Below, in pieces: positions 3,424 through 18,988 of a stretch of 64,000 bases of DNA. Source of the stretch: an uncultured Rhodopila sp. (lineage in GTDB: Bacteria > Pseudomonadota > Alphaproteobacteria > Acetobacterales > Acetobacteraceae); assembly GCF_903944925.1 (NCBI RefSeq), contig NZ_CAJATU010000042.1:248001-312000 (forward strand), written 5' to 3'. Every line of letters starts with the position of its first letter. Position 1 is the first letter of the stretch. The notes beneath the pieces were generated by a model. It made no database searches, was not told the origin of the DNA, and saw only the letters and a list, made by a program, of their open reading frames with translations. The translations under genes and the position numbers were made by a program.

Positions 3424-3504
3424 GGCTTTATTGCCGCCCCGGGCGAACCCGCGATGCGCCGGCTCGTTCAGGCGGGCATTGCCGATGCCCGAAGGACCCA
3501 GCCC

Positions 3505-3987
3505 ATGCCCGACCACGCCCTGCCGGACCTCGAAATCCGCCTGACGATCAACGGCGAACACCGGCGGCTGGATGTCGCGCCCTGGACCACCTTGCTTGAT
3601 CTGCTGCGGCTGGACCTCGGCCTGACGGGGACGAAGAAGGGCTGCGACCACGGCCAGTGCGGTGCCTGCACGGTGCTGATCGACGGCGTGCGGGTGAACA
3701 GTTGCCTGGTGCTGGCGGTGATGAAGGACGGCGCCATCGTCACGACTGTGGAAGGGCTGGCCGAACCGGATGGCACGCTGCATCCGTTGCAGGACGCCTT
3801 CATCGAGCACGACGCCTTCCAGTGCGGCTACTGCACGCCCGGCCAGCTCTGTTCCGCCGCGGGCCTGATACAGGAAGGCCACGCCCGCACCGCCGCCGAA
3901 ATCCGCGAACTCATGAGCGGCAATATCTGCCGCTGCGGCGCCTACCCCAACATCGTCGCCGCCATCGAGCAGGTAATCGCCCGATGA
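3505..3987 (+). CDS. Aldehyde/xanthine oxidoreductase 2Fe-2S subunit (PaoA-like)
   Basis: The 160-residue electron-transfer subunit belongs to a molybdenum hydroxylase. The plant-type 2Fe-2S cluster is held by C47, C52, C55 and C67 ([16 protein letters not shown]). The second, xanthine-oxidase-type cluster is held by C107, C110, C142 and C144 (QCGYC and ICRCG). The ATG at 3505 has GAAGGA 8 bases upstream; an ATG at 3454 would add 17 poorly conserved residues. Unlike E. coli PaoA there is no twin-arginine leader, so this enzyme is probably cytoplasmic. The stop overlaps the next start (ATGA). Confidence 0.92.
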
Positions 3988-4997
3988 ACCGCTTCTCCTA
4001 CGCCCGGCCGAACGACCTCGCCGAGGCCGTGCAGGTGGCCACTGCGGAGTCCCGCTTCATCGCAGGCGGCACCAACCTGATCGACCTGATAAAGTATAAT
4101 GTCGAGCGCCCCGCGCGGCTGATCGACATCACCCGCGTGCCCGGCCTCGACCGCATCGAACCGGCGCCGGGCGGCGGCCTGCGCATCGGCGCTTTGGTGA
4201 CCAACAGCACGGTGGCCTACGACGATCGCGTCACCGCGAGTTATCCGCTGCTGGCCAGCGCGATCCTGGCCGGCGCCTCGCCGCAGTTGCGCAACGCAGC
4301 CACAACCGGCGGTAATCTGCTGCAACGGACCCGCTGCTACTATTTTTACGACTCCGGCACCGCCTGCAACAAACGCGAACCCGGCAGCGGCTGTCCCGCC
4401 ATTGGCGGACTGAACCGCATCCACGCCATCCTCGGCACCAGCGAAGACTGCATCGCCACCCATCCCTCCGACATGTGCGTGGCGCTCGCGGCCCTGGCGG
4501 CCACGGTGCATGTCACCGGGCCGATCGGCGACCGCGTTATTCCGTTCGCGGATTTCCATCGCCTGCCCGGCGACCGTCCGGACCGCGATACGACGCTCGA
4601 GAAGGGCGAGATCGTCACCGCCGTCGAGCTGCCGCCCGAGGATTTTAGCGCGCATTATACCTACCTGAAGCTGCGCGATCGCCTCAGCTACGCCTTCGCC
4701 CTGGTCTCCGTCGCCGCCGCGCTGGACCTCGACGGCGACACCATCAGGACCGCCCGGATCGCCCTGGGCGGTGTCGCCCACAAGCCATGGCGGATACCCG
4801 CGGCCGAGGATTTCCTGTCCGGCCAACCCGCCACCGCCGAAAGCTTCGCCCGCGCCGCCGACACCCTGCTCTCCGGCGCCCAAGGCTTCGGCCACAACAC
4901 CTTCAAGATCGGCCTTGCCCGCCAGGCGATCGTCCGCGCGCTGCAACAGGCCGCCGCCGGGACGCCGCAGTCGCAGATCGACAAGCGCATCCGATAG
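3984..4997 (+). CDS. Molybdenum hydroxylase FAD subunit with 4Fe-4S cysteines (PaoB-like)
   Basis: The 337-residue FAD-binding subunit carries the family motif [13 protein letters not shown] near residues 25-37 and [12 protein letters not shown] at about 107-118. Four cysteines (C118, C128, C137, C156) sit in the insertion CYYFYDSG...[11 protein letters not shown]...SEDC. In E. coli PaoB this insertion binds an extra 4Fe-4S cluster, which marks the complex as PaoABC-type rather than ordinary xanthine dehydrogenase. The start overlaps the previous stop by 4 bases. It would pass electrons between the Fe-S subunit and an external acceptor. Confidence 0.92.
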
Positions 4998-5008
4998 GAG
5001 CCTCCGCC

Positions 5009-7249
5009 ATGTCCACCACCATCGAGACTCACGTCGGAAGCCCGCGCCGCCGCGTCGACGGCCGCCTGAAGGTCACCGGCGCCGCGCGCTATGCCGGGGA
5101 AGTCGCCGCTCCCGGCCTGCTGCATGGCTACGTCGTCTCCGGCACCATCGCCAAGGGCCGGATCACCGGGATCGATACCGCGGCGGCCGAAGCGGTGCCG
5201 GGCGTGCTGAAAATCTTCACCCATGCCAACCGGCCAAACGTTCCGGCCGGCGATGCCGACTACCAGGACATGGTCGCCCCTCCCGGCCAGCCGTTCCGCC
5301 CGCTGTTCAACGACCGCATCCTCTACAGCGGCCAGCCTGTCGCGCTGGTCGTCGCTAAGGATTTCGCCGCCGCCCGCCACGCCGCATCGCTCGTGAATGT
5401 GCGGGTCGAGGCCGAGCCGCACGCAACCGACCTCGATCGCCTCCGCGACTCCGCATACGTGCCGCCCGAGAAACGGGAGGGCATCGCGCCGCCGCCGGAA
5501 CCGCGCGGCAAAGCCGATGACGCCCTCGCTGCGTCGCCAACGCGCGTGCAGAATGAATACCGCATCGCCAGCGAACATCACAACCCGATGGAGCCGCACG
5601 CCTCGACGGTGATCTGGGAGGGCGGCGGCAAAATCACTGTCTATGACAAGATCCAGGGCGTGAAGAACAGCCGCGACTATATCACCGCGGTGTTCGGCCT
5701 GCCGCCGGATGATGTGCGGGTCATCAGCCGCTTCGTCGGCGGTGCTTTCGGCATCGGGCTGCGGCCGCAATACCAGTTGTTCCTGGCGGTGATGGCGGCG
5801 CTGGACCTGGAACGGTCCGTCCGCGTGGAACTGACCCGGGAGCAGATGTTCACCTTCGGCTACCGCCCCGGGACGATCAATTCCGTCGCCGTCGGCGCCA
5901 ATCCGGACGGCAAGCTCCAGGCGATCCGGCATGAGGCCATCCAGGGGACCTCCAGGTTCGAGGACTACCAGGAGGTCGTCGTCAACTGGTCCGGCCTGCT
6001 GTACCACTGTGACAACATCGCGTTGAACTACCGGATCGCCAAGCTCGACACCTACACCCCGGCCGACATGCGCGCACCCGGTGCGCCGTTGGGTGTGTTC
6101 GCCATCGAATCGGCGATCGACGAACTGTCCTACGCGCTGAAGACCGATCCGCTGGAGTTACGGCTGAACAACTACGCCGACACCGACGAGAACGAAGGCA
6201 AGCCGTTTACCAGCCGCGAACTGCGCGCCGCCTGCCGCCAGGGCGCGGACCATTTCGGCTGGTCGAAACGGCAGCCGGAGCCGCGGTCGATGCATGACGG
6301 CCGGGAACTCGTCGGCTGGGGCATGGCCACCGGCATCTGGGAAGCAATGATGATGCCGCACAGCGCCCGCGCCACCTTGACCGCGGAAGGCAAGCTGGAG
6401 GTCGCCTGCGCCACCGCCGATATCGGCACCGGCACCTACACGATCCTGACCCAGATCGCCGCCGACTCGCTCGGACTGCGGATGGAGGACGTGACCACCC
6501 GCCTGGGCGACACCATGCTGCCGGAAGCGCCGGTCGAAGGCGGGTCCTGGACCGCCGCCTCGGCCGGCTCCGCCGTCTATCTGGCCTGTGAAAAGCTCCG
6601 GCAAACGCTGTTCCAACTTGCCCGCGGGATGGACGCATCGCTGCTCGGAAACGCCAGCTTCGAGCACGTGCAGTTCCGCGACGGCCGTATCGAGCTGCGG
6701 ACGGACCCCTCGGAAACCGTATCGATCGCCGAAGTGCTGCGCACCGCCGCCCTGGACCGCATCGAGGAGCATGAAACCGCCGCGCCCAACGCCGAAACAA
6801 AGGAGAAATTCTCTCAGTATACCCATTCAGCCGTGTTCGCCGAAGTGCGGGTGGACGAGCAACTCGGCGTGGTGCGCGTGACACGCATCGTCGATGCGGT
6901 CGCGGCCGGCAAAATCATCAACCCGAAGACTGCGCGCAGCCAGATCATCGGCGGCGTCGTGTTCGGCCTGGGGATGGCGCTGCACGAGGAATCGATGCTC
7001 GACCACACACTCGGCCGCTTCATGAACCGCAATCTCGCCGAATACCACGTGCCGGCCAACGCCGATGTCCCCGAAATAGACGTCATCTTCGTTGACGAGC
7101 ACGACGACAAAGCCAACCCCCTCGGCGTCAAAGGCCTCGGCGAGATCGGCATTGTCGGCACTGCCGCGGCCATCGCCAACGCGATCTTCCATGCAACGGG
7201 CAGGCGGATCCGGTCGCTGCCAATAACGATCGACAGGCTGATGAATTGA
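5009..7249 (+). CDS. Molybdenum hydroxylase Mo-cofactor subunit (PaoC-like)
   Basis: The 746-residue large subunit binds molybdopterin cytosine dinucleotide and hydroxylates the substrate, most likely aldehydes to acids. VGGAFGIGLRPQYQ, MRAPGAPLGVFAIE and the C-terminal GVKGLGEIG mark the family; the glutamate in GLGE (about residue 711) is the expected catalytic base. Length fits E. coli PaoC (about 730). The ATG at 5009 follows ATAGGAG. A PaoD/XdhC-like maturation chaperone is not seen nearby, so insertion of the sulfurated cofactor must rely on a gene elsewhere. Confidence 0.92.
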   Translation: MSTTIETHVGSPRRRVDGRLKVTGAARYAGEVAAPGLLHGYVVSGTIAKGRITGIDTAAAEAVPGVLKIFTHANRPNVPAGDADYQDMVAPPGQPFRPLFNDRILYSGQPVALVVAKDFAAARHAASLVNVRVEAEPHATDLDRLRDSAYVPPEKREGIAPPPEPRGKADDALAASPTRVQNEYRIASEHHNPMEPHASTVIWEGGGKITVYDKIQGVKNSRDYITAVFGLPPDDVRVISRFVGGAFGIGLRPQYQLFLAVMAALDLERSVRVELTREQMFTFGYRPGTINSVAVGANPDGKLQAIRHEAIQGTSRFEDYQEVVVNWSGLLYHCDNIALNYRIAKLDTYTPADMRAPGAPLGVFAIESAIDELSYALKTDPLELRLNNYADTDENEGKPFTSRELRAACRQGADHFGWSKRQPEPRSMHDGRELVGWGMATGIWEAMMMPHSARATLTAEGKLEVACATADIGTGTYTILTQIAADSLGLRMEDVTTRLGDTMLPEAPVEGGSWTAASAGSAVYLACEKLRQTLFQLARGMDASLLGNASFEHVQFRDGRIELRTDPSETVSIAEVLRTAALDRIEEHETAAPNAETKEKFSQYTHSAVFAEVRVDEQLGVVRVTRIVDAVAAGKIINPKTARSQIIGGVVFGLGMALHEESMLDHTLGRFMNRNLAEYHVPANADVPEIDVIFVDEHDDKANPLGVKGLGEIGIVGTAAAIANAIFHATGRRIRSLPITIDRLMN

Positions 7250-11918: not shown

Positions 11919-12692
11919 ATGACCGCCGTCCTTTTCGAGGTCGTGCAGCCGCACATAGCGCTGGTCACCATCAACCGGCCGGAAGCACGCAACGCCATCA
12001 ACGGGGAAGTCGCCGCCGGGATCGAAGCCGCGGTGGAGCGCCTGGAAGCCGATCAGGAACTTTGGGCAGCGGTGTTGACCGGATCTGGGGTGCAGGCTTT
12101 CTGTGCCGGTGCGGATTTGAAAGAGGTTTCCGCCGGCCGGGTTGCCGGACTGTCCACGCAGAAAGGCGGGTTCGCCGGATTCGTCCGCGCCAAGCGAAGC
12201 AAATTGTGGATCGCCGCGGCGCAGGGCCACGCGCTGGCGGGCGGCCTGGAGCTTCTGCTGTCCTGCGACCTCGCAGTCGTGGCCGAAACGGCCACGTTCG
12301 GCGTGCCGGAGGTCAAGCGCAGCCTGCTCGCCGGCGCCGGCGGCGTGTTCCGCCTGCCGCGCGCCATTCCCAAGGCGATAGCACTGGAAATGATCGCCAC
12401 CGGCGATGCGATTTCCGCCGCACGCGCCGCGCAGTTCGGGCTGGTCAACGCAGTCGTGCCGGCTGCGGACGTTGTTTCGGCGGCGCTGGCTTTGGCAGCC
12501 CGCGTAACCGTCAACGCGCCGCTGGCCGTGCGCGAAAGCCTGGGTGTCGCCCGGCAAGCCTACGAACTCACCGAAGCCGAACTGTGGGATGTCAGCGCTG
12601 CGGCGTTCAGCCGCCTCGTTGCCACAGAGGATTTCAACGAAGGCCCGCGCGCCTTCGTGGAAAAGCGCCCGCCGCGCTGGGTCGGCCGTTAA
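11919..12692 (+). CDS. Enoyl-CoA hydratase/isomerase (crotonase) family protein
   Basis: The 257-residue crotonase has INRPEARNAIN near the N-terminus, FCAGADLKE (oxyanion-hole segment), and GHALAGGLELLLSCD. FGVPEVKRSLLAGAGGVFRL follows. Both catalytic glutamates of true hydratases (in GGLE and VPEV) are present, so hydration of 2-enoyl-CoA thioesters is plausible. The ATG at 11919 follows AAGGA; a longer frame from 11811 has no ribosome site and overlaps the upstream gene. The 3' end overlaps the convergent nitroreductase gene by 4 bases. Confidence 0.87.
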   Translation: MTAVLFEVVQPHIALVTINRPEARNAINGEVAAGIEAAVERLEADQELWAAVLTGSGVQAFCAGADLKEVSAGRVAGLSTQKGGFAGFVRAKRSKLWIAAAQGHALAGGLELLLSCDLAVVAETATFGVPEVKRSLLAGAGGVFRLPRAIPKAIALEMIATGDAISAARAAQFGLVNAVVPAADVVSAALALAARVTVNAPLAVRESLGVARQAYELTEAELWDVSAAAFSRLVATEDFNEGPRAFVEKRPPRWVGR

Positions 12693-13243
12693 GTCAGCCG
12701 GCGGACGAAGCTGTCCGCATCGTCGGCCGCCGCCGGCGCCGGGACGGCTTTCGGTGTGCCCAGGTAGAGAAATCCGACGATCTGATCTTCATCGCGCAGG
12801 TCGAGTTCGCGGTGCAGGCCGCGGTCGTACATGAACCAACCCGACCGCCAGATCCCGTTGAAGCCCTGCGCCCGGGCCGCCATCTGCATCGCCATCACGG
12901 CGCAGCCGGCCGCCAGTTGCTGGTCGAACACCGGAACGAGGTCACTCGGCCGTGGTGTCGAAACGACAACGATCACCATCGGCGCCCGCCCGGGCATCCT
13001 GATCGATCGTTGCACGACATCGTCCGGCTTGCCGGCCGCGATCGCCGCGCGTTGCATGATCGCCCCGAGCTTCTGCAGTTCACCGCCCGTCGCGATGATG
13101 AACGCATAGGGGCGGAGCCGCTGATGATCCGGCACCCGCAACGCCGCCTGGATGATCAGCTTCAGCGCCTCGCCTTCCGGCGCCGGCAGACCGAGCGCCC
13201 CGCAGGACTGGCGTTGCAACAGGAACTGCAAATTATCTGACAT
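12689..13243 (-). CDS. YdjA-like nitroreductase family protein
   Basis: The 184-residue FMN-dependent protein closely resembles E. coli YdjA: RVPDHQRLRPYAF, AAGCAVMAMQMAARAQGF, GIWRSG and IVGFLYLGTP are all kept. Such enzymes reduce nitro groups or act on other electron-poor substrates with NAD(P)H. The ATG at 13243 has AGAGAAAG upstream and lies 11 bases inside the preceding ABC ATPase gene. It is therefore the fourth gene of an overlapping operon, and this context suggests a dedicated role with the GTPase and ATPase rather than general detoxification. Confidence 0.88.
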   Translation of the reverse strand: MSDNLQFLLQRQSCGALGLPAPEGEALKLIIQAALRVPDHQRLRPYAFIIATGGELQKLGAIMQRAAIAAGKPDDVVQRSIRMPGRAPMVIVVVSTPRPSDLVPVFDQQLAAGCAVMAMQMAARAQGFNGIWRSGWFMYDRGLHRELDLRDEDQIVGFLYLGTPKAVPAPAAADDADSFVRRLT

Positions 13244-14231
13244 GGGGTCTTTCTCTCGGGGACTGATGCGCCCAGACGATCGGGTCCTCGATGCGTTCGC
13301 CCCGTGCCAGCCGCTCGCGCACCGCCAGCATCGCCGCATCGATATCTTCCAACTGGATCAGCACCGCCTTCTCAGCCTCGCTGGTCGTAATGACATCGGC
13401 GATGCGGCCGTGGCTGATGATCACGCGGCGATTGCCCAAAAGCGCCAGCAACGGATCGTGCGTCGAGACCAACACGATCTTATCCTCCGACACCAGCAGA
13501 TCCAGCGCATCCCTTCGATTGATCCCCGCATTCTCAATCTCGTCAATCAGAACAATCGGCGATTCGCTCAGCAACGCCGCATCGGCGATCATCAACGCCC
13601 GCGCCTGGCCGCCGCTGAGCTGGGTCAGCGAAACGTCGGGGCCGAAACGTTCACCCGCCAGCGAGTTGGCGATCGCTATGATCCGGCCGGTCACGCCGCT
13701 GTCCGGGTCGATCTGCCGGCAGGCGGCATGCATGTCCAGGAATACGCCGACCGTCAGATCGACAACGAAATTCATGTTCTGCGACAGTTGCGCGACCAGT
13801 TTGCAGTCCGGCGCGAAGCGTTGGTCCGGCGTCGGCAGCGCGCCGTTCAGCAGGATGCGCCGCCCGCTCGGCGTATCGCCTTGCGCCAGGCATTCCACGT
13901 CGGCCAGCAAACGGCTTTTGCCGGATCCGGTGGGACCGACGATGCAGACGATCTCCCCCGCGCTGAGCACCAGCGCATCGTGCTCGGCGTGGCCGTCCTT
14001 GCCATGACCGCCTTCGACCGTCAGCGTGTGGATGGCCGACTGCGCCGCCGGCGGTTCGGCGGTTTCGGCTTGCAGCAGCAGGTGCAGATGCGCCGCGAGC
14101 TGTTCCCGGTCCAGGCCCATGTCCTGCAGCGCGGCCTCCGGCATGGCCGCCGTCCAGCCGTCGATGCAGGCGCCGGCGGGCAAATCCGGCAACCCGAGGC
14201 CGGACAGGAACGCCGCGATGCGCGGGCTCAC
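13233..14231 (-). CDS. ABC-type ATPase without permease partner
   Basis: The 332-residue protein has one ABC domain after an N-terminal helical segment of about 60 residues. Walker A GPTGSGKS is at 99-106, signature LSGGQ at 205-209, Walker B IVLIDE at 226-231 and the H-loop histidine at 258. No membrane-spanning protein is encoded in the operon, so it may act on a soluble partner rather than drive transport. The GTG start at 14231 overlaps the GTPase stop (GTGA) by 4 bases, a translational-coupling arrangement. Its end overlaps the nitroreductase start by 11 bases. Confidence 0.87.
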   Translation of the reverse strand: MSPRIAAFLSGLGLPDLPAGACIDGWTAAMPEAALQDMGLDREQLAAHLHLLLQAETAEPPAAQSAIHTLTVEGGHGKDGHAEHDALVLSAGEIVCIVGPTGSGKSRLLADVECLAQGDTPSGRRILLNGALPTPDQRFAPDCKLVAQLSQNMNFVVDLTVGVFLDMHAACRQIDPDSGVTGRIIAIANSLAGERFGPDVSLTQLSGGQARALMIADAALLSESPIVLIDEIENAGINRRDALDLLVSEDKIVLVSTHDPLLALLGNRRVIISHGRIADVITTSEAEKAVLIQLEDIDAAMLAVRERLARGERIEDPIVWAHQSPRERPHVR

Positions 14232-14923
14232 CGGCTGTCCTCGAAGCTCATTTTGCGCACGTTGCCGCGCTGATACGTCTCGCCGATGGCGGTTTCGCCG
14301 ACGCAATAGGAACACGCCGCCGAGGGCATCGAGAAGCGCAGGTGGTGATGCTCCAGCGTATCGATCCGCGGCGCCGCATCGATACGGAACGCCAGGTCCA
14401 TCGCGCCCTGCCCGGTAATGCCGTTGCACCAAACCACCGGCGCGCGCGGGTTGGCGAGGCGGACGTTGTAAGCGAAAACCTCGCGTTCCGCCTGGGATAC
14501 GATATCACCCTTGGTGATTGCAACGACATCGGCGAGCCGGAGCATGGGGCCGATCTTCCGCGGCGTGTGGATGCCGGCGAGATTGTCAACGACGCAGATC
14601 GCCAGCACGCCCTTGATGTGCGGCGAGCAACGATTGCACAGCCCGGCGGTCTCGATGATCAGCACGTCAAGCCCGTTGCCGTGTCCCCAGGCGACGCAGT
14701 CGTCGATATTGCTGACAAAGTAATGATCCGGACAAAGGCCGCCGGACAGGCCGACGCGGACCGGCAGCCCAAGCGCGGCATAGGCGGCATCGTCCGTGGT
14801 GGACAATGCGTCGAATTTCACCACCCCAACATGCGCCCCATCGTCGCGCAGGCGGGCCGCAACCTTGATGAAAAGCGACGTCTTGCCGACGGAAGGCGGA
14901 CCCGCAACGGTTACCAGGCGCAT
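14228..14923 (-). CDS. HypB/UreG-type P-loop GTPase with two CxxC motifs
   Basis: The 231-residue SIMIBI-class GTPase has Walker A GPPSVGKT (8-15), the switch region LIIETAGLCNRCSPH (88-102) and TKGD (137-140) as guanine-specificity motif. CNRC (C96, C99, followed by H102), CSYC (C204, C207) and C64 are likely metal ligands. HypB, UreG and related proteins insert nickel or other metals into enzymes, so metal-centre maturation is the best guess. It is neither a typical HypB nor UreG and no hydrogenase or urease is present. Start and end overlap both operon neighbours. Confidence 0.82.
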   Translation of the reverse strand: MRLVTVAGPPSVGKTSLFIKVAARLRDDGAHVGVVKFDALSTTDDAAYAALGLPVRVGLSGGLCPDHYFVSNIDDCVAWGHGNGLDVLIIETAGLCNRCSPHIKGVLAICVVDNLAGIHTPRKIGPMLRLADVVAITKGDIVSQAEREVFAYNVRLANPRAPVVWCNGITGQGAMDLAFRIDAAPRIDTLEHHHLRFSMPSAACSYCVGETAIGETYQRGNVRKMSFEDSR

Positions 14924-15936
14924 CAGGCGCGGTCCCAGGCGGCGAAGAACAGGCGCATCGCGGTCATGGTTTCTTCCGTCACGTCGTGTGTCCGCGTGTA
15001 GTCCCAGCCGAGCCAGTCCAGCCGCGCGCCGTCCGGCAATCCCTGCGAGCCGTCCGCCCAGACCGCCGGATAGCGATTGCGCGCAAGCTCGGCCGCGTAG
15101 GCATCGCCGCAGATGAAATCAATCAGCGGCTGCACCCGTTCGCGTCGCTCCGGCGCGACCGAAAATCCCATCGGCATGGTCATGGCGCCGTCATCCGGCC
15201 AGATCACCGAGGTTCGATCGCGGCGCGGACAGATATCCGCCTGCATCCAGGGCATGACGGATATCGCACCCATCTCAGGGTGGTTGGTGCCGGCGAAACG
15301 TGACGCCACCGTGTTGTGCATGATCGCGCGGGTGTTGTGGGCAAACGCCTTCACGCCGGCCGCGCCGAAACGGCTGTAGAGATTGAGCAGCAGGAAGTCG
15401 TTGCAGTCCGGGTAGGCCCCGTCGCTGGGCCGCTTCCAGCCGCCGAAGACGATCTGGTCGTGGTAGACGGGATCGAGAAGATCCTCCCACCGCCTCGGCA
15501 CCGGCCGGGCCTCCAGCTTGCGATGGTCGATCAGGAAAACCCACGGAATGACCGCGAAGACCGAGAACAATGCTTCAGGGTCGGTTAGGCCATCGGCCGC
15601 GGGATGCAGCGGCCGCGGCGTCGCGGCGGCATGGCCGGCCGCCCGCAGGCGATCCTGGAACGAAATCGACAGCACGTCGCGGGTGAACGGGGTCAGCATC
15701 ATGTTCGGCAAGCGCTGCGTCGGCTCCGACCGCGCCAGCGCATCGAACGGCGCATACCACTCGTTGCCCTTGACGAAGCAAATCCGTCGCCCGCCCGCCG
15801 CCGCCGCGGCGCGGTTCAGCCCGGAGGAGAACCCCTGGCGCAACGGCACCGGCATCCGCCCGAGAAAGTCGAGCGCCCCCAGATGCGGGCCCGCATCGTC
15901 CGGTTCGTCGAGACATATCAGCCGGCGGTGCAGCAT
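14923..15936 (-). CDS. Solute-binding-protein-like (type 2 PBP fold) protein lacking a signal peptide
   Basis: The 337-residue protein resembles iron(III)/spermidine-type binding proteins: FSVFAVIPWVFLIDHRKL, RRWEDLLDPVYHDQIVFGGW and MTMPMGFSVAPERRERVQPL. The N-terminus (MLHRRLICLDEPDDAGPHLG) has no hydrophobic core or cleavage site, so the protein is predicted to be cytoplasmic, which is unusual for this fold. It is the first gene of the operon and overlaps the GTPase start by one base (TGATG). It might present a metal chelate or cofactor to the GTPase/ATPase. That role is inference. Confidence 0.75.
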   Translation of the reverse strand: MLHRRLICLDEPDDAGPHLGALDFLGRMPVPLRQGFSSGLNRAAAAAGGRRICFVKGNEWYAPFDALARSEPTQRLPNMMLTPFTRDVLSISFQDRLRAAGHAAATPRPLHPAADGLTDPEALFSVFAVIPWVFLIDHRKLEARPVPRRWEDLLDPVYHDQIVFGGWKRPSDGAYPDCNDFLLLNLYSRFGAAGVKAFAHNTRAIMHNTVASRFAGTNHPEMGAISVMPWMQADICPRRDRTSVIWPDDGAMTMPMGFSVAPERRERVQPLIDFICGDAYAAELARNRYPAVWADGSQGLPDGARLDWLGWDYTRTHDVTEETMTAMRLFFAAWDRA

Positions 15937-16023: not shown

Positions 16024-16072
16024 AATGCACCGGAACGAACGACTCACCCGGAAATGTCCCGTTCCGTGCATT
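16024..16072. promoter_or_regulatory. Long inverted repeat between divergent operon and aldehyde dehydrogenase
   Basis: AATGCACCGGAACG (16024-16037) and CGTTCCGTGCATT (16060-16072) are complementary except for one extra C, separated by 22 bases. It lies upstream of both divergent genes and just before the aldehyde dehydrogenase promoter. It could be a regulator-binding site or a cruciform. Confidence 0.45.
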
Positions 16073-16149: not shown

Positions 16150-17580
16150 ATGGCTCATGAACACCATCATTATGTCAACGGAGCCTGGGTGGCTCCGCTG
16201 CAATCCACCTTGCTGGACGTGATCAATCCGTCGACGGAGGAAGCCTTCACGCAGATCGCCGTCGGTTGTGCCGCCGACGTAGACCGGGCCGTGGCGGCGG
16301 CGAGGGCGGCGTTTCCGGCGTTTGCCCGCACCACGCGGGCGCAACGCCTGGATTTGCTGCGTGCCATCTTGTCCGAATACCAAAAGCGGCGGCAGGACAT
16401 CGCCGAGACGCTGTCCAAGGAAATGGGCGCGCCGCTGAAATTCGCGCTGAACAGCCAGGCGGGCACCGGCACGGCGCATCTGCAACGCATGATCGAGGTG
16501 CTGGAAACCTACCGGTTCGAAGACGTCGAGGGCACCACCCTGATCGTGCGCGAACCTATCGGCGTCGTCGGACTCATTACGCCATGGAACTGGCCGATCA
16601 ACCAGATCGTTTGCAAGGTGGCTCCAGCGATTGCGGCGGGCTGCACGATGGTCCTGAAACCGTCCGAGGTTGCGCCGCTGAACGCCATCATCTGGTCGGA
16701 GGTGATGCACGCAGCGGGCGTTCCGGCGGGCGTCTACAACATGGTGCAGGGTGAGGGCGGGGTCGTCGGGGCGGCCATGTCATCGCATCCCGACATCGAC
16801 ATGATGTCGTTCACCGGATCGACCCGCGCCGGCATCCTCGTTGCGCAGGCATCGGCAACGACGGTGAAGCGGGTGGCGCAGGAACTCGGCGGCAAGTCGG
16901 CGAACATCCTGCTGCCGGATGTCGATTTTCAGAAGGCGGTGACCAAGGGTGTGCTCGGGATGATGGGCAACAGCGGCCAATCCTGCAACGCTCCGACACG
17001 CATGTTCGTCCCGATCGACAAGCATGAGGAGGCCAAGGCGATCGCCAGGGCGGCGGCGGAGCGGGTGGTTGTCGGCGATGTCAACGATCCCGGCACGACC
17101 ATCGGCCCGGTGGTCAGCGAAATACAGTTCAACAAGATCCAGCGCCTGATCCAGTCCGGCATTGATGAAGGTGCGGACCTCGTCACCGGCGGTCCCGGCC
17201 GGCCGGAGAATCTCAACCGCGGCTACTATGTCCGCCCGACCGTCTTCGCCAACGTGCGCAACGACATGTCGATCGCGCGGGAGGAAATCTTCGGCCCCGT
17301 GCTGTCGATTCTGCCCTACAGGGATGAATCGGAAGCAATCCGTCTGGCCAATGATACGGTGTATGGCCTTGCCGCCTATGTGCAGTCGGCGGACCGCGCG
17401 CACGCCAACCGCGTGGCGGCGGAAATGCGGGCAGGCAACGTTTTCGTCAACTATCCGGATTGGGATACCGCCGCGCCATTCGGCGGCTACAAGCAGTCGG
17501 GCAACGGCCGCGAATACGGCAAGTGGGCGATCGACGACTTTACCGAGATCAAGGCAGTCATCGGCTACCAGGCCGCCTGA
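16150..17580 (+). CDS. NAD(P)-dependent aldehyde dehydrogenase
   Basis: The 476-residue enzyme oxidises aldehydes to carboxylic acids. Visible features are the cofactor-binding segment ITPWNWPINQIVCKVAPA, the general-base glutamate in QELGGKSAN (about 245) and the catalytic cysteine in GNSGQSCNAPTR (about 279). EEIFGPVLSILPY near the C-terminus is also conserved. Length and motif order are standard. The specific aldehyde is unknown. It is transcribed away from the nitroreductase/GTPase operon behind its own promoter and a strong inverted repeat. A terminator-like hairpin follows the stop. Confidence 0.93.
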   Translation: MAHEHHHYVNGAWVAPLQSTLLDVINPSTEEAFTQIAVGCAADVDRAVAAARAAFPAFARTTRAQRLDLLRAILSEYQKRRQDIAETLSKEMGAPLKFALNSQAGTGTAHLQRMIEVLETYRFEDVEGTTLIVREPIGVVGLITPWNWPINQIVCKVAPAIAAGCTMVLKPSEVAPLNAIIWSEVMHAAGVPAGVYNMVQGEGGVVGAAMSSHPDIDMMSFTGSTRAGILVAQASATTVKRVAQELGGKSANILLPDVDFQKAVTKGVLGMMGNSGQSCNAPTRMFVPIDKHEEAKAIARAAAERVVVGDVNDPGTTIGPVVSEIQFNKIQRLIQSGIDEGADLVTGGPGRPENLNRGYYVRPTVFANVRNDMSIAREEIFGPVLSILPYRDESEAIRLANDTVYGLAAYVQSADRAHANRVAAEMRAGNVFVNYPDWDTAAPFGGYKQSGNGREYGKWAIDDFTEIKAVIGYQAA

Positions 17581-17588
17581 AGTCACTG

Positions 17589-17612
17589 CGCGAGGCCGAT
17601 GCCGGCCTCGCG
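17589..17612. terminator. Hairpin between convergent aldehyde dehydrogenase and chemoreceptor genes
   Basis: CGCGAGGCC (17589-17597) and GGCCTCGCG (17604-17612) are a perfect 9-bp stem with a 6-base loop, placed in the 52-base gap between two convergent genes. It lacks a T-run but could serve both strands. Confidence 0.55.
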
Positions 17613-17632
17613 TCACCGTCCGCGGCGAAAAG

Positions 17633-18988
17633 CTATGCCGCCTTGACGCCCTTGATGAACGCACCGACGTCGCTGCGGAGTTGCTCGGCCTGAAGCGACA
17701 GCGCGCCGGCAGCATCCAGCACCTGGTTCGCCGCCGCGCCGGTATCGTTGGCGCCTCGGCTGACGCCGACGATATTGGAGGAAACCTCCTGCGTCCCGGC
17801 CGCGGCCTGCTGCACGTTCCGGGCGATTTCCTGCGTGGCCGAACCTTGCTCCTCCACCGCCGCGGCGATGGCGGCGGCGATTTCGCTGATCTCGCCGATG
17901 GTCGTGGCGATGCCCCGGATGGAATTCACGGCATCCCTGGTCGCGGTCTGGATTTGCGCAATCTGATGCGTGATATCCTCGGTCGCCTTTGCGGTCTGGG
18001 TGGCCAGGCTCTTGACTTCGGAGGCAACCACGGCAAACCCCTTGCCGGCATCGCCTGCCCGTGCCGCCTCGATCGTGGCGTTCAGCGCCAGCAGGTTGGT
18101 CTGGCCGGCGATGTTGCTGATCAGCCCGATGACCTCGCCGATTTTCTGCGCGCCGTCCGACAGGGCCTGCACCACCCCATCGGTGCGTTTGGCGTCGTCC
18201 CTTGCCTTGCCGGCGACTTTCGCCGATTGCGCGACCTGGCGGGATATTTCCGTGATCGAGGTTGCAAGTTCCTCGGCCGCCGCCGCGACGGTCTGCACGT
18301 TGACGCTGGCCTCCTCGGCCGCTGCGGCGACATTGGTCGCCTGATGCAGCGCCTCCCCGGCCGTGCCGGTCATGGATCGGGCGGTGGTTTGCAGTTCGGC
18401 CGCCGCGATGGAAACCTTCCCGACCAGTTCGGCGGCTTTCGATTCGAAAGCCTTGGCGAGCGTGTCGATGGATTTCGCCCGCTGTTCGGCCGCCTCGATC
18501 AGTCGTTCCTGATAAACCGATATGGCGACGCTCATGTCGAGCATGACCGCGGCGAGCACGGCGTCCATCACCTGCCGCGCGCGCGCCGGGGCGAAGCGAT
18601 GCACACGCCCCGATAGTTGGTTGAGGCTGGCCAGCACGAAATTGTAGCTGCCGATATACCACGCCGGTTCGAGGCCGATTCGGGCATGCACCAGGCCAAC
18701 CGTGCGGACGCTTTGGAAATAGGCATCGTCGAAGCGGCCGGAGAAGAGACGTTCCCAATGCGTACCCTGTACGGTCTTCAACCGCGCCGTCTGGTTGCCC
18801 ACCATGCGGGCGAGATCCGGCTCGGTGCCGGCATGGCGGTAGAAGCCGTCAAGAATTTCGGGCAACGCCGCCTGCACATGCGGCCAGAAGCCGGAAAGCG
18901 TGACCGCCGTATCCGGCGTGATCCGCATGAAGGCAAGACGGGAGCGCGCATCCGTGGCGGTGTCCAGGGGGCGAGGGTCAATCCGCAT
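17633..18988 (-). CDS. Globin-coupled methyl-accepting chemotaxis protein (soluble, HemAT-like)
   Basis: The 451-residue protein has an N-terminal protoglobin sensor domain (to about residue 165) with [19 protein letters not shown]; the histidine (about 101 from this start) is the expected haem ligand. The C-terminal signalling domain includes the CheA/CheW-binding hairpin tip region [20 protein letters not shown]. There is no transmembrane segment or HAMP domain, so it is a cytoplasmic oxygen/gas receptor for aerotaxis. The ATG at 18988 has GAGG nine bases upstream; a TTG at 19003 is the longer alternative. No che genes are adjacent. Confidence 0.92.

Follow-up and report, generated by a model that had tools for sequence, protein, structure and literature searches.

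In Azotobacter vinelandii, the genes Avin_02430 to Avin_02390 form a sigma54-type operon that depends on the activator VnfA1, as published in 2022 (PMC9542535). The encoded proteins are annotated there as a substrate-binding protein (SBP; Avin_02430), a nickel binding GTPase (Avin_02420), an ATP-binding cassette (ABC) ATP-binding protein (Avin_02410), a nitroreductase (Avin_02400) and a glutamate-cysteine ligase (Avin_02390). According to that study, the ligase gene is not conserved outside Azotobacter, the operon minus this fifth gene is conserved among representative Proteobacteria with vanadium nitrogenase (V-nitrogenase), which is credited to Addo & Dos Santos 2020, and the function of the operon is left open. 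Here, we analyze four overlapping genes of an uncultured Rhodopila species, contained in a stretch of 64 kb (the window; G000:C42:248001-312000) of a genome of 7.0 Mb. A first-pass annotation of this DNA could not match the genes to a described system; the same operon is, however, in print as Avin_02430-02390 (PMC9542535). That paper was the sole match to the Azotobacter locus tags in the literature we searched, which left subscription journals largely outside.

We conclude that the four genes very probably constitute an accessory operon of the V-nitrogenase regulon, which is based on the genes present and their co-occurrence, on promoter-like sites, and on predicted folds and invariant residues. 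The best explanation of their role, in which our confidence is evenly balanced, is that this accessory operon delivers vanadium to the assembly of the nitrogenase cofactor.

Operon layout and the Azotobacter counterpart

The operon and two putative control sites preceding it are arranged as follows:

14923..15936, minus strand: gene 1, SBP_bac_6 protein of 337 amino acids (aa) with a predicted cytosolic type II periplasmic-binding-protein fold
14228..14923, minus strand: gene 2, G3E-type GTPase of 231 aa with a predicted HypB/UreG fold
13233..14231, minus strand: gene 3, permease-less ABC ATPase of 332 aa with a GTG start
12689..13243, minus strand: gene 4, YdjA-like nitroreductase of 184 aa
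15969..15984, minus strand: sigma54 (-24/-12) promoter-like site TGGCACGGTTCTTGAT, its end lying 33 bases upstream of the SBP start
16027..16040, minus strand: VnfA-like activator site GTTCGTTCCGGTGC (GTTC-N6-GTGC), one mismatch to GT(T/A)C-N6-GTAC

Between positions 15936 and 12689 of the minus strand, adjacent genes overlap by 1 base (SBP and GTPase), 4 bases (GTPase and ABC ATPase) and 11 bases (ABC ATPase and nitroreductase), as the first-pass annotation had claimed. Its assignments of the third and fourth genes were borne out as well: the ABC ATPase matches Pfam ABC_tran (E = 2.1e-11) with no permease among the four genes, and the YdjA-like protein matches Nitroreductase (9.7e-15). Genes 1 and 2 match SBP_bac_6 (2.7e-54) and cobW (4.1e-9), respectively. 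Among the matches listed (25 of 135 for the ABC protein), none of the four proteins passed an NCBIfam cut-off; nearest of all came the nitroreductase with 181.1 bits for the YdjA equivalog NF008088, whose cut-off is 183.

The window and Avin_02430-02400 share the gene order SBP-GTPase-ABC-nitroreductase, a sigma54-like promoter with a VnfA-like site and a V-nitrogenase in the genome, A. vinelandii being compared by description and gene order. They differ in the fifth gene, as a glutamate-cysteine ligase gene was not found at this place in the window, where a convergent, presumably crotonase-like gene stands instead. The five-gene order of A. vinelandii recurs in Azotobacter chroococcum (L026), whose GTPase belongs to the same clade as that of the window and whose proteins are 72% (GTPase), 57% (ABC), 59% (nitroreductase) and 49% (SBP) identical to those encoded here. 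Among the best matches listed in our collection scan, the closest named loci were those of Rhodopila.

Co-occurrence with V-nitrogenase and control sites

The earlier observation that no client enzyme is encoded nearby holds for the surroundings of the operon in the window but not for the genome, which carries vnf genes on another contig (G000:C64; locus L101). This cluster comprises a VodA-like phosphonate-binding SBP, NifX-like genes, vnfK-G-D, a sigma54 activator and a NifE/NifN pair scoring above the respective nifE and nifN cut-offs. The activator matches Pfam Sigma54_activat, and its best NCBIfam match, NifA, reached 480 bits, under the cut-off of 529. The D subunit scored 995.1 bits with VNFD (cut-off 823.1, passed) and 689.4 bits with ANFD (cut-off 873.8, not passed). 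In the PDB it matched the VFe protein 5n6y with 1007 bits, the next best entry reaching 642.

At least 523 related stretches exist in the species-genome collection. We surveyed the best 80 (L017-L096) together with L016 and the window, that is 82 loci, and typed nitrogenase D subunits by their BLAST score to the VnfD of the window genome versus an AnfD; for the references and seven further D subunits, this typing is consistent with the curated cut-offs of VNFD and ANFD. Within the window's GTPase clade, 21 of 23 genomes carry a V-type D subunit, as opposed to 0 of 20 tested genomes outside it, six of which have the Fe-only type; of the 59 loci outside the clade, 20 were tested for AnfG/VnfG. 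The clade members without AnfG/VnfG, L022 and L033, belong to genomes of 3.1 and 1.7 Mb. Also in this clade is the firmicute Ruminiclostridium hungatei, which has a V-type D subunit and a locus that shows no nitroreductase. The nitroreductase gene occurs in 17 of the 82 loci, among these solely in the window's clade, and maps as a single change on the GTPase tree (a quick tree, with five loci omitted where a contig end could hide the gene). VodA-like genes were found in eight of the 82 loci, all eight within the same clade.

Genome draws, each of which includes its centre genome, were compared at the level of genus, class and order. As the genomes are related, Fisher values for the associations in this survey are rough and carry no weight in our conclusions. 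A GTPase orthologue is present in 4 of 33 Rhodopila genomes (59 genomes searched in all). All four operon-bearing genomes also encode AnfG/VnfG, versus 0 of 4 tested among the 29 operon-less congeners. PF00148 scores above 350 bits occurred among the 33 genomes just in the four operon bearers and in G023 (68% complete, no AnfG/VnfG). In a class-level draw of 385 genomes, the GTPase was found in the window's own genome and G077 only, and AnfG/VnfG likewise in these two only, apparently in the same draw. An order-level draw of 160 genomes around Pararhodospirillum oryzae (G425) contained AnfG/VnfG in five (G425, G485, G511, G549 and G596). G425, the draw centre, and G485, whose locus sequence is the same as that of G077, carry the operon; G511 and G549 (L134 and L135) carry V-type vnfDGK and VodA-like genes, and in G596, which is of the Fe-only type, the GTPase and ABC genes were not found. 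For Nostoc plasmids encoding a 75% identical VnfD, a search confined to the plasmid records gave no GTPase.

The site TGGCACGGTTCTTGAT differs from what we take to be the sigma54 consensus by a single mismatch (TTGA for TTGC). For a TTGA-tolerant pattern it is unique in the 64 kb window, with 0.12 expected and one occurrence in each of 12 out of 100 shuffles. A scan for sigma70 promoters gave no candidate at the operon. The VnfA consensus used for the activator site is that of PMC9542535. Both sites are kept in four of four Rhodopila orthologues, in which the rest of the leader is much diverged. We fitted a composite pattern of activator and sigma54 site to the Rhodopila sequences; across the 7.0 Mb genome it has a single match, at the operon, and the reversed control has 0. 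Allowing up to one mismatch, VnfA-like sites precede 10 of 16 four-gene operons, with 0.11 expected per leader. The vnf cluster of the same genome contains five VnfA-like motifs versus 1.1 expected, a number matched in 0 of 200 shuffles; before vnfD, a VnfA-like site lies between two divergent sigma54-like sites with one mismatch each.

Further proteins recur around these genes. One of 113-114 aa, 49% identical between its two copies, adjoins the sigma54 activator in the vnf cluster of the window genome (L101:9725-10069, minus strand; no Pfam match for this copy) and, in a metagenome-assembled genome of Magnetospirillum, immediately follows the four-gene operon (L020:12235-12576, plus strand). 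Another of 292-297 aa, for which Pfam gave no match, follows vnfK at L101:4264-5157 and L028:12954-13832 (both minus strand; 43% identical).

Predicted folds and a possible route for vanadium

The first-pass annotation had described gene 1 as a binding-protein fold without signal peptide, and this stands. The first in-frame start codon of the SBP reading frame is the ATG at 15936, so the frame offers no ATG, GTG or TTG codon for an earlier start. A hydrophobic N-terminus, defined as 12 consecutive residues with a mean hydropathy >=2.0 within the first 45 residues, was absent from all 82 SBP-family proteins analyzed, which come from 79 loci, the same criterion identifying 19 of 27 FecB-type and 13 of 17 ModA-type neighbors; start sites and neighboring genes were taken from an in-house gene caller with a codon-usage heuristic. 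The AlphaFold model of the SBP (predicted local distance difference test, pLDDT, 89.8) is a type II binding protein whose top fold matches are the ferric-binding proteins FutA/FbpA (best E = 1.7e-13, template modeling score ~0.6). Lower matches include 2-aminoethylphosphonate-, pyridoxal-phosphate- and sugar-phosphate-binding proteins and the metal-citrate binder MctA. The modeled fold is thus common to FutA/FbpA, MctA and the SBP of the window, which differs from them in its predicted cytosolic location, with ~11-16% identity in the listed matches. A DUF1858 domain, present in 17 of 40 SBP relatives scanned, does not occur in the window's SBP.

An SBP fold encoded together with an ABC ATPase, as well as FecC-type permeases within 16 of the 82 loci, would suit an ordinary importer of the ABC type, with the permease gene located elsewhere. 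This is highly improbable and largely contradicted by the consistent lack of signal peptides, by the conservation of the unit without a permease and by the GTPase gene standing alongside in 74 of 82 loci. We therefore rejected an ordinary transporter, for which both signal peptide and permease are missing. At L059 (4802-6331), GTPase and ABC ATPase are even contained within one open reading frame, which would fit a direct interaction of the two proteins.

Gene 2 had been called a HypB/UreG-type GTPase with CNRC and CSYC pairs, and both pairs are present. Its model (pLDDT 86.2) is nearest to UreG (4hi0, E = 2.5e-10) and HypB (2hf8, 6.1e-10), and the protein passes the Pfam cobW cut-off (36.7 versus 20.7 bits), which places it in the CobW/HypB/UreG (G3E) superfamily. 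It contains GPPSVGKT, ETAG and TKGD, which we take to be the usual GTPase motifs, the first being the P-loop and the second having its E in G3. With HypB and UreG it shares these motifs, the predicted fold and a conserved cysteine after the P-loop region; it differs from them in the CNRC and CxYC pairs, at ~20% identity, and in that neither hydrogenase nor urease is encoded in the operon. In 83 of 83 GTPases from the 82 loci, C64, H67, C96, C99, C110, C204 and C207 are invariant, forming the motifs C64-P-D-H67, C96-N-R-C99 and C204-x-Y-C207 (CPDH, CNRC and CxYC; CSYC in the window).

Some relatives of the operon further resemble the HypB/HypA pair, since behind the ABC gene of 15 of 81 loci (e.g. 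L066:11735-11977) we found a gene for a HypA-like, zinc-ribbon protein of ~80 residues. The assignment relates to a weak HypA match below the cut-off; 11 of 12 sequences have M-H-(D/E/Q)-G-C at or near the N-terminus, and L085 has M-S-H-E-G-C. Together with the modeled HypB/UreG fold and a presumed hydrogenase-4-like cluster beside L036, this might indicate a nickel chaperone serving a hydrogenase associated with nitrogen fixation. Avin_02420 has also been named a nickel binding GTPase (PMC9542535). We regard such a role as quite improbable for the window, however: its GTPase is far under the hypB (31.9 versus 121.2 bits) and ureG (26.8 versus 204.2 bits) cut-offs, and its clade, in which the HypA-like gene was not found, tracks V-nitrogenase instead. 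A true HypB or UreG for the maturation of hydrogenase or urease is ruled out by these NCBIfam family cut-offs.

The ABC ATPase has an N-terminal extension of ~85 residues and strongly conserved AQLSQ and DEIENAG motifs. A PDB profile search gave generic ABC matches only among the 60 of 288 matches listed. By analogy, it may be likened to SufC, a soluble ABC ATPase acting in metallocluster assembly (PMC9164220), with the difference that SufB and SufD are not encoded in the operon. By its family, we take the nitroreductase to be a flavin mononucleotide enzyme.

An intracellular, permease-less metal machine with a metalloenzyme client, as proposed in the first-pass annotation, is still the best reading, and the likely client is V-nitrogenase. 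Under molybdenum limitation, a VnfA-type activator and sigma54 would switch the operon on. The cytosolic SBP-fold protein would then capture vanadium imported by a VodABC-like importer, the nitroreductase would reduce V(V) and the GTPase would accept the reduced metal at its CPDH, CNRC and CxYC thiols and pass it on for the EN step in the assembly of the FeV cofactor. Instead of serving a permease as usual, the ABC ATPase could use ATP to open or release the binding protein or complex. The identity of the metal, the direction of its transfer, each catalytic step and the regulation in this organism are what we infer here. Capture, reduction and delivery of vanadium are suggested by the folds, the invariant thiols, a reductase confined to the V-linked clade and VodA-like genes near the operon in relatives, and we put this sequence of events at even chances. 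To our knowledge, the intracellular movement and insertion of vanadium in cells with V-nitrogenase are largely unsolved problems. The operon offers a compact candidate gene set with invariant residues, and its vnf co-regulation is known in a genetically tractable organism.

Alternatively, the genes might form a cytosolic metal sensor or regulatory module. There is a precedent in VnfZ, a signal-peptide-less paralogue of VodA that acts on VnfA3 (PMC9542535), so that a cytosolic binding protein can indeed act in regulation. Yet the operon encodes two NTPases and a flavoenzyme and, by Pfam, no DNA-binding or regulator domain, and its SBP belongs to SBP_bac_6 instead of the Phosphonate-bd family of VodA-like proteins, all of which makes a VnfZ-like function improbable.

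The three-gene core and an iron alternative

The core of SBP, GTPase and ABC ATPase extends far beyond the four-gene operons, related stretches being found in Proteobacteria, Chlorobiota, Bacillota, Fusobacteriota, Deferribacterota, Spirochaetota, Bacteroidota and other phyla. The genes are not usually separated: SBP and ABC genes adjoin the GTPase gene on the same strand in the 74 loci mentioned, 71 in the order SBP-GTPase-ABC and three in the order GTPase-ABC-SBP. The eight exceptions include contig ends at L022, L040 and L076 and an SBP at L031 that was missed by the gene caller and seen by BLAST. Per 82 loci, neighboring genes are of ModA type in 15, FecB type in 24, FecC type in 16 and DUF364 ('heavy-metal chelation') in 12, the last having been placed in the context of iron, tungstate, vanadium and molybdate transport (PMC2954201). 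NifD/K-family genes stand near the core in 16 of 82 loci, nine in the window's clade and seven outside it, namely Pelosinus L050 and L052 (Fe-only) and L059, L071, L078, L088 and L090 (untyped).

A universal link of the core to nitrogenase was rejected, as PF00148 was found in just 30 of 38 core-bearing genomes or records. One of the eight without it at E<=1e-5, G447, encodes a NifD-like protein that is highly divergent and, at 27.3 bits, falls below the cut-off. The NifH family is present in 7 of 21 core-bearing genomes or records, two of these seven being weak (<60 bits); including the operon-less G511 and G549, the set gave 9 of 23, was chosen partly for lacking PF00148 and contained 12 without a PF00148 test. 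Since the core lacking the nitroreductase stands beside Fe-only nitrogenase in Pelosinus and beside untyped NifD/K-family genes in other loci, and occurs in genomes that yielded no nitrogenase in our searches, its ancestral substrate is unlikely to have been vanadium.

These distributions lead to the main rival of vanadium delivery, in which the core would serve iron and not vanadium, loading or repairing complex iron-sulfur clusters such as the nitrogenase P-cluster or cofactor, those of nitrogenase-like reductases or that of hybrid cluster protein (Hcp), and the V-linked clade would be a specialized branch with the same chemistry. The Fe-only and untyped NifD/K loci outside the window's clade, the frequent FecB- and FecC-type neighbors and the modeled likeness of the SBP to ferric-binding proteins agree with it. 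Of the 15 loci that carry the HypA-like gene, five also contain an Hcp gene, versus 0 of 66 others, one of the five being checked by Pfam and NCBIfam; E. coli, on the other hand, makes Hcp and is not known to have the core genes. Pararhodospirillum oryzae contains three GTPases: the first in the four-gene operon, on the same contig as a V-type vnfD, the second accompanied by a FecB-type gene, with NifEN-like and DUF364 genes nearby, and the third, 40% identical, with an ABC partner opposite NifB/H/D/K-like genes (L154; G425:C93, 289-8126). This last, divergent ABC-GTPase pair, which is followed by a presumably NifS-like gene, likewise speaks for iron. On resemblance alone, the NifB/H/D/K-like genes may be a methylthio-alkane reductase cluster (marBHDK). 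A counterargument, if the host itself lacks the core genes, is that methylthio-alkane reductase has been made with MarB in Rhodobacter capsulatus (PMC12552129). Moreover, the iron alternative leaves unexplained why the window's clade tracks V over Fe nitrogenase (21 of 23 versus 0 of 20). We consider it possible but rather unlikely.

Several results weigh against the assignment to V-nitrogenase and vanadium. The V-type genomes G511 and G549, which pass VNFD, have neither the GTPase nor the ABC gene at E<=1e-15, and when the centre genome is left aside, the operon is present in one of three V genomes of the order-level draw. A strict rule that V-nitrogenase always comes with the operon was thus rejected; V-nitrogenase does not require the operon, which is therefore auxiliary. 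Outside Rhodopila, the picture of the control sites is weaker. Sigma54-like sites with at most one mismatch precede just 5 of 16 four-gene operons, four of them from Rhodopila, and 4 of 63 three-gene operons, with 0.001 expected in each case, and VnfA-like sites at the same tolerance also occur in 12 of 63 three-gene leaders, with 0.12 expected. The core without nitroreductase is likewise found near Fe-only and untyped NifD/K genes and in genomes that yielded no nitrogenase. Finally, the predicted SBP fold argues for iron as much as for vanadium.

That the three-gene core is so widespread in anaerobes points to a broader role in servicing metal clusters. Tentatively, SBP, GTPase and ABC ATPase may represent an ancient class of nucleotide-driven metallocluster maturation machines, in which a cytosolic binding protein and an ABC motor would be coupled to a HypB-like GTPase. 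Such a class could have been adapted separately to V-nitrogenase, with the nitroreductase, to Fe-only nitrogenase and perhaps to other nitrogenases and nitrogenase-like reductases. In anaerobes without nitrogenase, a HypA-like partner might direct it to Hcp or another client. We found no description of the trio as a class in the literature searched.

In Fusobacterium gastrosuis (L074), a NifH-family and a very divergent NifD-like protein are encoded beside a FecBCD-type transporter (16533-18811), ~5 kb from the core genes. The names TonB, NrfA, NifS, hydrogenase-4, crotonase and xanthine-dehydrogenase type, which we use for neighboring genes, are presumed ones and come without a family call. 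Three adjoining genes at ~3454-7249 (plus strand) of the window presumably encode a xanthine-dehydrogenase-type enzyme with iron-sulfur, FAD and molybdenum subunits.

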